Position numbers and translations under genes: made by a program. Below are positions 43,997-61,861 of a stretch of 64,000 nucleotides of DNA, one piece after another. The stretch's first letter is position 1. Every line of letters begins with the position of its first letter. The notes under the pieces are model-generated. The model saw only the letters and a program-made list of their open reading frames with translations, was not told the DNA's origin and made no database searches. The DNA comes from Nocardia sputorum. Its GTDB lineage: Bacteria > Actinomycetota > Actinomycetes > Mycobacteriales > Mycobacteriaceae. The stretch spans positions 5,270,001 through 5,334,000 of the forward strand of contig NZ_AP026978.1 of NCBI RefSeq assembly GCF_027924405.1, in the 5' to 3' direction.

Positions 43997-44071
43997 GCTG
44001 GATTTGTTGTCGGCATGAGCGGGGCCCTGCGTGGTCACGCTGCGCTTCCGCCTCCAGGCCTGACCGCTCAT
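43997..44071 (-). repeat. 75-bp start-codon repeat, copy A
   Basis: Read on the minus strand, this unit starts at an ATG (44069-44071) and ends directly before the next ATG (43996), in the same frame, encoding 25 residues (M-S-G-Q-A ... R-S-V-T-T-Q-G-P-A-H-A). Its first 48 bases match copies B and C at 61721 and 61796 with only a few differences. It adds an extra start in front of the DUF4233 gene. Confidence 0.8.
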
Positions 44072-44190
44072 GCTGTGCCCTCCTCGGCGTCGGCCGGGCT
44101 CACGAAGTGTCCGGCGTTCCTGCGGTGCTTCTCGGCGTCCACGGGCCCGCCGTGGCCGGATAGGCTGCCGTCCGCGCACCCGGCGCTCAC
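44068..44190 (-). CDS. 40-residue bridge ORF between folC and DUF4233
   Basis: A GTG at 44188-44190 overlaps the folC stop (GTGA) and opens 40 codons whose TGA overlaps the ATG of repeat copy A (ATGA). The peptide ends ...H-F-V-S-P-A-D-A-E-E-G-T-A and carries GAGGAGGGC, which also serves as ribosome site for the next start. No family is recognised. Overlaps at both ends make it a coupling spacer or a small conserved protein; I cannot tell which. Confidence 0.45.
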   Translation of the reverse strand: MSAGCADGSLSGHGGPVDAEKHRRNAGHFVSPADAEEGTA

Positions 44191-45650
44191 GCCGGGTCCT
44201 TCCCGAACAGCGCGCGGGCCGCGCCCGCCGTGACCACCGACCCTGTCACGATCACTCCGGCTCCGGAGACCATCTCGCCCGCCTCGCCCACCTCTTCGGC
44301 GATCGCGATCGCGGTCTCCAGCGCGTCGGGCAGCGTGGCGGCGGAGACCACGCGCTCGTCACCGAACCGCTGGACCGCGAGGTCGGCGAGCGTCTCCACG
44401 TCCAGCGCGCGGGGCGAACCGTTGCTGGTGACGACGATCTCGTCCAGCACCGGCTCCAGCGCGGTGAGGATGCCGGCGGCGTCCTTGTCACCGAGCACCG
44501 CGACCACTCCGACCAGTTTGCGGAAGTCGAACTCGTCGGTCAGCGTCGCGGCCAGCGCCTGCGCACCGGCCGGATTGTGCGCGGCGTCGATGAAGATGGT
44601 GGGCGCGCTGCGCATGCGCTCCAGCCGCCCAGGGCTGGTGACGCTCGCGAAACCGGCGCGCACGGCGTCCATGTCGAGCTTGCGTTGCGCGCCCGCGCCG
44701 AAGAACGCCTCCACCGCCGCGAGCGCGAGCACCGCGTTGCGCGCTTGGTGCTCGCCGTGCAACGGCAGGAAGATCTCGTCGTACACCCCGCCGAGGCCCT
44801 GCAACTCGAGTTGCTGCCCGCCCACCGCGATCTGCCGGGCGAGCACGCGGAACTCCGAGCCCTCGCGCGCGACCGCGGCGTCCATCTCGACGGCGCGGCG
44901 CAGCAGCACCTCCATCGCCTCCGGTTCCTGCTGCGCGATCACCGCGACGTTGTCGCGCGGCACCAGGCCCGCCGGGGCGCGTTTGATGATCCCGGCCTTC
45001 TCGCCCGCGATCGAGGTGAGGTCCGGGCCGAGGTACTCGGTGTGGTCCAAGCCGATCGGCGTGATCACCGCGACCTGCCCGTCGACCACGTTCGTGGCGT
45101 CCCAGGTGCCGCCCAATCCCGTCTCGACGACCGCCACGTCGACCGGCGCCTCGGCGAAGGCGGCGAACGCCATGCCGGTGAGCACCTCGAACTTGCTCAT
45201 CGCGGGACCTCCCGCGGCCGCCGACTGCTTGTCGATCATCTCGACGTACGGCAGCAGCTCGCGGTAGATCTCCACGTACCGCGCGGGCGTGATCGGCGCG
45301 TTGTCGATGCTGATCCGCTCGGTGGCCAGTTGCAGATGCGGACTGGTGATCCGGCCGGTACGCCGATGCAGCGCGGTGAGCAGCGCGTCGATCATCCTGG
45401 TCACCGAGGTCTTGCCGTTGGTGCCCGCGATGTGGATCGCCGGGTAGCTCTGCTGCGGCGAGCCGAGCAGATCCATCAGCGTGGCGATCCGGGTGAGCGA
45501 GGGCTCGATCTTGGTCTCCGGCCAGCGCCGGTCGAGTTCCGCCTCGACCAGCGCCATCTCCGCCAGCTCCACCGGCGAGGGGCCGGAGCCGAGCCGCGCG
45601 CCGCCACGGCGCTCGTCGTCGCCGTATTGCGGTTCCGGCTCGTGGTTCAC
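44187..45650 (-). CDS. folC: Folylpolyglutamate synthase / dihydrofolate synthase
   Basis: This 487-residue Mur-ligase-type enzyme has the ATP loop H-I-A-G-T-N-G-K-T-S-V near residue 72, T-S-P-H-L-Q and E-T-G-L-G-G-T-W-D-A-T-N-V. The C-terminal domain carries F-I-D-A-A-H-N-P-A-G with the conserved His. It adds glutamate to dihydropteroate or folates. The GTG at 45648-45650 overlaps the valS stop as GTGA, which fixes the start. The first 30 residues (P-Q-Y-G-D-D-E-R-R) are variable. Confidence 0.95.
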   Translation of the reverse strand: MNHEPEPQYGDDERRGGARLGSGPSPVELAEMALVEAELDRRWPETKIEPSLTRIATLMDLLGSPQQSYPAIHIAGTNGKTSVTRMIDALLTALHRRTGRITSPHLQLATERISIDNAPITPARYVEIYRELLPYVEMIDKQSAAAGGPAMSKFEVLTGMAFAAFAEAPVDVAVVETGLGGTWDATNVVDGQVAVITPIGLDHTEYLGPDLTSIAGEKAGIIKRAPAGLVPRDNVAVIAQQEPEAMEVLLRRAVEMDAAVAREGSEFRVLARQIAVGGQQLELQGLGGVYDEIFLPLHGEHQARNAVLALAAVEAFFGAGAQRKLDMDAVRAGFASVTSPGRLERMRSAPTIFIDAAHNPAGAQALAATLTDEFDFRKLVGVVAVLGDKDAAGILTALEPVLDEIVVTSNGSPRALDVETLADLAVQRFGDERVVSAATLPDALETAIAIAEEVGEAGEMVSGAGVIVTGSVVTAGAARALFGKDPA

Positions 45651-61724: not shown

Positions 61725-61795
61725 GCGGTCAGGCCCGGAGGCGGCAGCGCAGCGTAACCACGCAGGGCCCCGCCCATGCCGGAATCGGACACAGC
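61721..61795 (+). repeat. 75-bp start-codon repeat, copy B
   Basis: It starts at an ATG whose bases overlap the fdhF-like stop (ATGA) and ends just before the ATG of copy C at 61796, in frame. It is nearly identical to copy C over the first 48 bases and to copy A (43997-44071) over the whole unit except the last dozen bases. Confidence 0.85.
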
Positions 61796-61861
61796 ATGAG
61801 CGGTCAGGCCCGGAGGAGGCAGCGCAGCGTGACCACGCAGGGCGAGGGGTACAGCGCATGA
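61721..61861 (+). CDS. 46-residue repeat ORF bridging fdhF-like gene and fdhD
   Basis: The start overlaps the upstream TGA (ATGA, 61721-61724) and the stop overlaps the fdhD ATG (ATGA, 61858-61861). The product consists of two units, M-S-G-Q-A ... G-P-A-H-A-G-I-G-H-S and M-S-G-Q-A ... G-E-G-Y-S-A. It is Arg/Gln/Ser rich with no recognisable fold. Its main role is probably to keep ribosomes moving from fdhF to fdhD; whether the peptide matters is unknown. Confidence 0.45.
   Translation: MSGQARRRQRSVTTQGPAHAGIGHSMSGQARRRQRSVTTQGEGYSA
61796..61857 (+). repeat. Start-codon repeat, copy C (shortened)
   Basis: The first 48 bases match copies A and B; the tail is shortened to give a 62-bp unit. 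That length shifts the frame, so the ORF closes on TGA exactly over the fdhD ATG. Confidence 0.8.

Follow-up and report, generated by a model that had tools for sequence, protein, structure and literature searches.

Mycobacterial interspersed repetitive units (MIRUs) are widely used in strain typing; the way in which they move and are tolerated by genes is, to our knowledge, an open question. The phrase 'DTGA sites' reportedly comes from the 1997 MIRU paper by Supply et al. Small hairpin DNA and non-autonomous copies are also features of REP palindromes and IS200/IS605-type elements, among which recognition of the target through base pairing is known. In the available text of a 2025 review (PMC12548453, citing Supply et al. 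1997), mycobacterial MIRUs are short repeats, apparently mobile, with start codons as their insertion sites and an open reading frame (ORF) coupled at −4, and an excerpt of another account puts their length at 40-100 bp and gives, for M. tuberculosis, 41 locations (PMC2734929). Stable mRNA structure downstream of stop codons, the ribosome termination structure, is presented as a general feature in the accessible part of a third source (PMC7518266). Here we describe a repeat in a 64,000-nt stretch of Nocardia DNA (the window, taken as a whole) for which the initial annotation knew of no named family with such behaviour, a statement that does not hold, since the available text of the review describes MIRUs in those very terms (PMC12548453). 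The repeat, ~70 nt long, is probably a non-autonomous and nearly genus-specific mobile element that works like a mycobacterial MIRU, a reading drawn from sequence comparison.

The three copies of the repeat core that the initial annotation had listed lie exactly where it placed them, one on the minus strand (44024-44071) and two on the plus strand (61721-61768 and 61796-61843), and Pfam matches were obtained in the surrounding genes for FdhD, a molybdopterin oxidoreductase upstream of FdhD, a FolC-like Mur ligase and DUF4233 (Table 1). The closest named relatives of this FdhD, at 89%, are from N. exalbida, N. gamkensis and N. arthritidis. The two plus-strand copies agree at 96% over 50 nt, and 44024-44080 agrees with 61787-61843 at 93% over 57 nt. 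A distance of 75 bp from ATG to ATG was seen, as described, both from 44071 to 43996 and from 61721 to 61796; this unit length applies to the first fdh unit, and the second one is shortened, with its next ATG at 62 bp instead of 75. The proposed 46-codon ORF is present between fdhF and fdhD, its ATG overlapping the upstream stop codon and its TGA the fdhD start, and the copy on the folC side runs in frame into DUF4233, with 163 codons open when counted from the unit ATG. Because several relatives hold recognizable or half-decayed units in the same place, the 115 nt between the folC stop and this copy are probably a relic of older units.

Table 1. Positions of the repeat units and of the adjoining genes in the window.
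Feature	Position	Strand	Remarks
Hairpin unit 1, fdhF/fdhD junction	61716..61783	+	Covariance model match, 91.2 bits; ATG 61721-61723 overlaps upstream TGA 61722-61724
Hairpin unit 2, 3' arm lost or replaced	61791..61859	+	51.8 bits
46-codon unit ORF	61721..61861	+	TGA (61859-61861) overlaps fdhD ATG at 61858
5' hexamer copy GCATGA	61719..61724	+	Last Ala codon plus stop of upstream gene
3' hexamer copy GCATGA	61856..61861	+	At fdhD start
Upstream open frame, stop to stop, molybdopterin oxidoreductase (fdhF-like)	59079..61724	+	Pfam; ends in TGA within unit 1
fdhD	61858..62694	+	Pfam
75-bp unit preceding DUF4233	43997..44071	−	Missing in G082, G015, G059, G017, G052, G026
Hairpin of DUF4233-side unit	44009..44076	−	Covariance model match, 84.1 bits
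115 nt, folC stop to unit	44072..44186	−	Probable relic of older decayed units
DUF4233 gene from native ATG	43580..43996	−	Pfam
Open frame with folC-like Mur ligase	44187..46337	−	Pfam; frame bounds, not gene start

The unit is a hairpin of ~70 nt with covarying stems. The typical unit has the sequence GCATGAGCGG-TCA-GGCCC-loop-GGGCC-CCGCTCATGC; a linker, for instance CGGAAAGGACACA, separates it from the next GCATGA. The outer stem (11 pairs in the model, 11-12 bp) and inner stem (5 bp) of the unit both covary around a conserved loop. In an alignment of 60 sequences, both sides had changed in 14 of 20 pairs (shuffled mean 5.2, with 0 of 500 shuffles reaching 14) and 90.2% of cells were paired (at most 47.1% in slid controls), the alignment having left out 9 of 69 distinct units, namely eight that are truncated or decayed and one that nearly repeats another unit of its array, an omission that favours structure. 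The small apical stem varied on one side, with no compensatory support. The consensus folded at −42.2 kcal/mol (z −3.84) and another start-type unit reached z −3.23; three leader-type copies folded singly gave z −0.11, −1.34 and −1.21, little or no better than shuffles, and for one stop-only unit folded singly the family structure was not the minimum-energy fold. G-U cells numbered 52 versus 34 A-C cells, an excess that weakly favours an RNA over a DNA structure.

BLAST of the 151-bp fdh stretch against the 7.43-Mb chromosome gave 61 rows at E ≤ 10, and 46 of these reached E ≤ 1e-5, so the three copies in the window are not a matter of chance. A covariance model (CM) search of the same chromosome, with the best 150 of 10921 candidates scored, yielded at least 61 matches at E ≤ 1 and at least 55 at E ≤ 0.01; a decayed array near 519 kb (L064) was matched by BLAST and is not among the CM matches listed. 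None of these 61 listed matches falls between positions 2,018,063 and 4,671,662 of the chromosome (G000:C1), a span of 2.65 Mb or ~36% of its length. At least 147 of 150 genomes of the genus, the window's own included, matched by BLAST at E ≤ 1e-5, and, the best five candidates per genome having been scored, the three without a match, G016, G109 and G128, do not necessarily lack the repeat. Across the taxonomic family, the CM matched 31 of 301 genomes, comprising 29 of the host's own genus (g1), one of g15 (strong) and one of g9 (borderline); BLAST matched 33 of the 301, the extra ones weakly, and weak matches outside g1 and g15 came from two g10 genomes and one g6 genome (E 2e-4 to 7e-4). Across the order, 3 of 121 genomes matched, all g1. 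The repeat thus appears nearly confined to Nocardia. On the 2.66-Mb 'plasmid 2' record of N. farcinica NCTC11134 (NZ_LN868939.1, L312), which has two annotated features, the consensus matched at 21 places.

Like MIRUs, the repeat is short, dispersed and prone to tandem arrangement, with at least two units in 59 of 98 distinct arrays. Local tandem duplication alone was dropped as an explanation, since the copies are dispersed and sites without units exist. Shortness, hairpin formation and a flanking repeat would also suit the end of a known transposon or a MITE of a known insertion sequence, an origin that we consider highly improbable: no Rfam match was obtained at the gathering threshold for 18 loci, no BLAST match among 50,697 phage records and no match in an exact-pattern scan of viral contigs, and, tandem arrays aside, the nearest two of the listed chromosomal CM matches are ~17.6 kb apart, so no pair of them brackets a transposase gene. 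The same searches led us to drop a known Rfam family and a phage or viral source. A literature search found no description of the repeat in Nocardia, a weak negative given that its results were mostly off topic and that subscription journals were outside its scope. The window's genome also holds a divergent sub-type (L063, L066, L075, L082, L087, L088, L089) with GGCG(C/T)GAGCG-like stems, mostly solitary and mostly located in leaders, not on a stop codon, for example at L082 ahead of a gene which, by eye from its translated start, we take to be rplQ-like.

Orthologous sites with and without units, as for MIRUs, were found at both loci compared, fdhF/fdhD and folC/DUF4233. Among 80 named fdhF/fdhD loci searched with model R1, units were present only in N. 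exalbida (three), N. gamkensis (at a contig edge), N. arthritidis and N. abscessus, and N. pneumoniae and N. amamiensis have a bare ATGA overlap with 29 nt from GTCACC to ATG, as in the window. These clearest unit-free fdh sites read TCATGA, not GCATGA, and the target hexamer before insertion is therefore borne out only at folC. At that locus, among the best 30 loci from 144 genomes with a DUF4233 protein, a bare GCATGA overlap is present in G129, G041, G127 and G081, and units occur in G009 (one), G032 (three of 77 bp) and G115 (two of 72 bp). The genome G082, with a DUF4233 protein 99% identical, has three fdh units versus two in the window and lacks the folC copy; the gap after folC held no unit above threshold in this genome or in G015, G059, G017, G052 and G026. 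Among seven neighbour genomes, the 75-bp folC unit is present in the window's genome (G000) only, located at an ATGAGCG that is unit-free in the other six. The simplest reading would be a gain in G000 rather than a loss in the relatives; since as many as 11 nt (CAGCATGAGCG) are common to the two ends of the unit, the pattern could also have arisen through recombination with an array already in place, or through loss from the relatives. Unit-free sites at both window loci are in line with the initial proposal of a selfish or recruited element, in that the element comes and goes between relatives.

Recombination has a wider form, in which homologous exchange or gene conversion between short scars, and not transposition, would spread the units. 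The folC site of close relatives already contains CACAGCATGAGCG, the usual unit-unit junction, and tandem arrays with a 75-bp period suggest unequal exchange; yet there is no scar in the bare overlaps at folC (G129, G041, G127, G081) or at fdh (N. pneumoniae, N. amamiensis), and the flanks of the stop-only sites in a second Nocardia sample, G048, varied, which leaves this mode of spread rather unlikely. Two further observations were made at these loci. The fdhF/fdhD junction of N. xishanensis (L215:2759-3004) carries, just before fdhD, a different tandem repeat with an 80-bp period and 3.1 copies; L210 and L208 have a similar-looking sequence, the motif is not in the window, and this second repeat at the junction looks unrelated to the hairpin unit. 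In the three-unit folC/DUF4233 array of G032 (L304:1250-1474), the 3' arm of unit 1 pairs with the folC-derived 5' flank and is unlike the arms of units 2 and 3, which are flanked by linkers.

The initial annotation had the element target start codons. The shared anchor is instead the upstream stop, mostly within GC[A/C]TGA. In the window's genome, 60 of the 61 CM matches fell into 30 groups. Of the 28 groups examined, 22 begin with NTGA, and for 18 of them that TGA closes an upstream frame of 100 codons or more; at L087 a longer frame ends 34 nt before it. Among the matches listed for G048, treated as an independent sample, 19 of 30 loci were stop-anchored, and 12 of the 19 read CTGA and have no start codon. 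Both genomes together, after 13 of the 61 own-genome matches had been dropped (weak, partial, second units or not fetched), gave 36 stop-anchored first units out of 55, with GCN as the last codon in 32 of the 36 versus 15 of 78 long TGA-ended frames of the window; the other 19 first units were not stop-anchored by this measure, 11 of them having no NTGA. In a wider set of 98 distinct arrays, consisting of fetched best hits and hence biased toward them, with orthologous loci included, 79 of 89 NTGA-type arrays have an upstream stop, versus 174 of 632 [AG]TGA in the window. By the counts in the window's genome and in G048, therefore, units are anchored on the stop codon; its overlap with a start is a special case, and in the window's genome the dominant one.

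The hexamer at the stop recurs exactly (6/6) downstream in 13 of 20 G048 loci, at +74 or +77 in 10 of the 13 and as the next tandem unit in three (L323, L326, L327), and 18 of the 20 have its complement in the 3' arm, agreeing at 5 or 6 of 6 bases, both figures being best matches taken without a shuffled control in 20 of the 30 loci (the 19 stop-anchored ones plus L321). We tentatively propose that the 3' arm may act as a guide: the element would insert at stops bearing a complementary hexamer, the hexamer would be duplicated, the stem would be the target paired with its guide, and lineages would retarget by changing the guide (TCATGC arms for GCATGA at stop/start overlaps, TCAGGC arms for GCCTGA, stop only). 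In 90% of 30 G048 first units, versus 26% in shuffles, the arm pairs with the base that precedes TGA and closes the final sense codon of the host gene, and pairing at positions −1 to −3 is also above shuffles, both in favour of a guide. Against it, internal units, whose flank is linker and not host gene, likewise show excess pairing at 0, −2 and −3; there is little variation at −1 and −2 in the window's genome; and pairing farther upstream is weak. Selection for the hairpin after insertion is an alternative that accounts for the same pairing data.

Such a hairpin might also be a domesticated regulatory RNA that, lying at the stop, governs termination, re-initiation or mRNA stability, as a ribosome-termination structure that can move, and is kept as useful, not selfish, a possibility to which we give a minority chance. 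Stem covariation extends to host-gene positions just before the stop, and some copies lie in leaders, such as the one before the presumably rplQ-like gene at L082. Stable structure just after stops is also the topic of the available part of PMC7518266. The presence of units, however, varies among close relatives, and arrays decay, which argues against domestication.

As to frame, each unit was first described as adding 25 codons in frame. This fits most units inside arrays, 75 bp being the internal spacing in 73 of 91 cases; at the last junction 74 bp is the most frequent value (33 of 73), with coupling through ATGA. Of the 91 internal spacings in the 98 distinct arrays, 76 are 0 mod 3, 15 are 2 mod 3 and none is 1 mod 3, and last junctions are 2 mod 3 in 54 of 73, 0 mod 3 in 13 and 1 mod 3 in 6, with 16 of 89 arrays that have no downstream start in range left out. 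The mean anti-Shine-Dalgarno (anti-SD) energy was −2.83 at 75 bp (n = 70) and −5.22 at 74 bp (n = 13) for internal junctions, and −6.34 at 2 mod 3 (n = 43), −4.39 at 0 mod 3 (n = 9) and −3.9 at 1 mod 3 (n = 2) for last junctions. The difference between 0 mod 3 and 2 mod 3 (P = 1.5e-10) and that between internal and last junctions within arrays (P = 8e-4, n = 32) carry optimistic P values, many arrays being orthologous. A crude count found an SD motif in 22 of 91 internal linkers versus 41 of 73 last linkers. As in MIRUs, units thus lie at stop/start overlaps with an ORF coupled at −4; in G048, however, 12 of the 19 copies are stop-only. The initial suggestion that ribosome coupling is preserved gains from frame and SD strength going together at the junctions, and weak signals at read-through with strong ones at ATGA junctions are the pattern to be expected if ribosomes cross the units. 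Our first reading, in which the frame bias itself proved translation, was toned down: CTGA copies with no start are also 74 and 77 bp (2 mod 3), so the frame bias alone is no proof, and the case for translation rests on the SD pattern.

Selection for an encoded micropeptide or a useful N-terminal extension would account for open units, and 150 of 164 core-bearing units are free of stops over the initial 24 codons in the start frame (11 units with no recognized core being left out of this count). Such selection is nonetheless very improbable, since the loop core is read in phase 1 in 113 units, phase 2 in 46 and phase 0 in 5, so that the peptides are unrelated, 125 of the 164 have a further open frame, and CTGA copies have no start. 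A conserved micropeptide was dropped on the grounds that the loop is read in several phases and the peptide sequence is not conserved.

The repeat is dispersed, forms a hairpin with a conserved loop and often sits exactly on an upstream stop (mostly GCA-TGA or GCC-TGA); the hexamer usually recurs, unit-free sites exist and copy number varies among close relatives. As a mobile, MIRU-like element it would duplicate the hexamer around the stop upon insertion. Where that stop overlaps a start (ATGA), the unit would supply a short ORF on which a ribosome leaving the upstream gene could restart. Having crossed the hairpin, this ribosome would read on in frame through a 75-bp unit; in a 74-bp unit it would stop at the new ATGA, provided with an SD sequence, and restart on the downstream gene. 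Insertion would in this way be nearly neutral for operon expression, which would permit spread.

The comparison with MIRUs was extended to the taxonomic family by means of a core motif taken to be that of MIRUs, whence the name of the repeats fetched with it; with up to 2 mismatches it matched 13 of 301 genomes, all of genus g29 and none of g1. Like the Nocardia unit, these g29 repeats lie at ATGA-type sites and have GCGCC/GGCGC ends, and L153, L167 and L170 have an ATGANC-type site at both ends. They differ in spacing, with about 51-55 bp between repeats in g29, whereas Nocardia units measure 74/75/77 bp and have stems of 11-12 bp and 5 bp, and stop-only (CTGA) insertions set the Nocardia repeat apart from MIRUs. 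Two MIRU units folded singly gave z −0.73 and −2.58. Model R1, run with filters off on 19 of 20 fetched loci, left the MIRU cores unmatched, its best score of 18.9 bits (E 0.11) falling in other parts of the loci, and identity with MIRUs by sequence was dropped on this result from the 19 loci. The Nocardia repeat is a different sequence family that appears to work like a MIRU.

A second MIRU-like family in another genus, with no sequence match, would make insertion that preserves ribosome coupling directly testable, and this family offers orthologous sites that are unit-free, a hairpin that covaries, a target hexamer that is preferred and junction frames that match SD strength. Its units may serve as variable markers for Nocardia and would account for start-codon ambiguity in annotation, for example at the DUF4233 N-terminus. 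In being small hairpin DNA with non-autonomous copies, the repeat resembles REP and IS200/IS605-type elements. With the ribosome termination structure, as set out in the accessible part of PMC7518266, it shares a stable mRNA structure at the stop that is tied to re-initiation; that structure is a general feature, whereas the Nocardia unit belongs to a repeat family with a conserved loop. With MIRUs, as far as the available accounts describe them, it shares being short, dispersed, tandem-prone and apparently mobile, with an ORF coupled at −4, and to what the available text of those accounts contains (PMC12548453, PMC2734929) it adds a stop-codon target, a recurring hexamer with its complement in the element, a covarying hairpin and a putative switch between read-through and restart.
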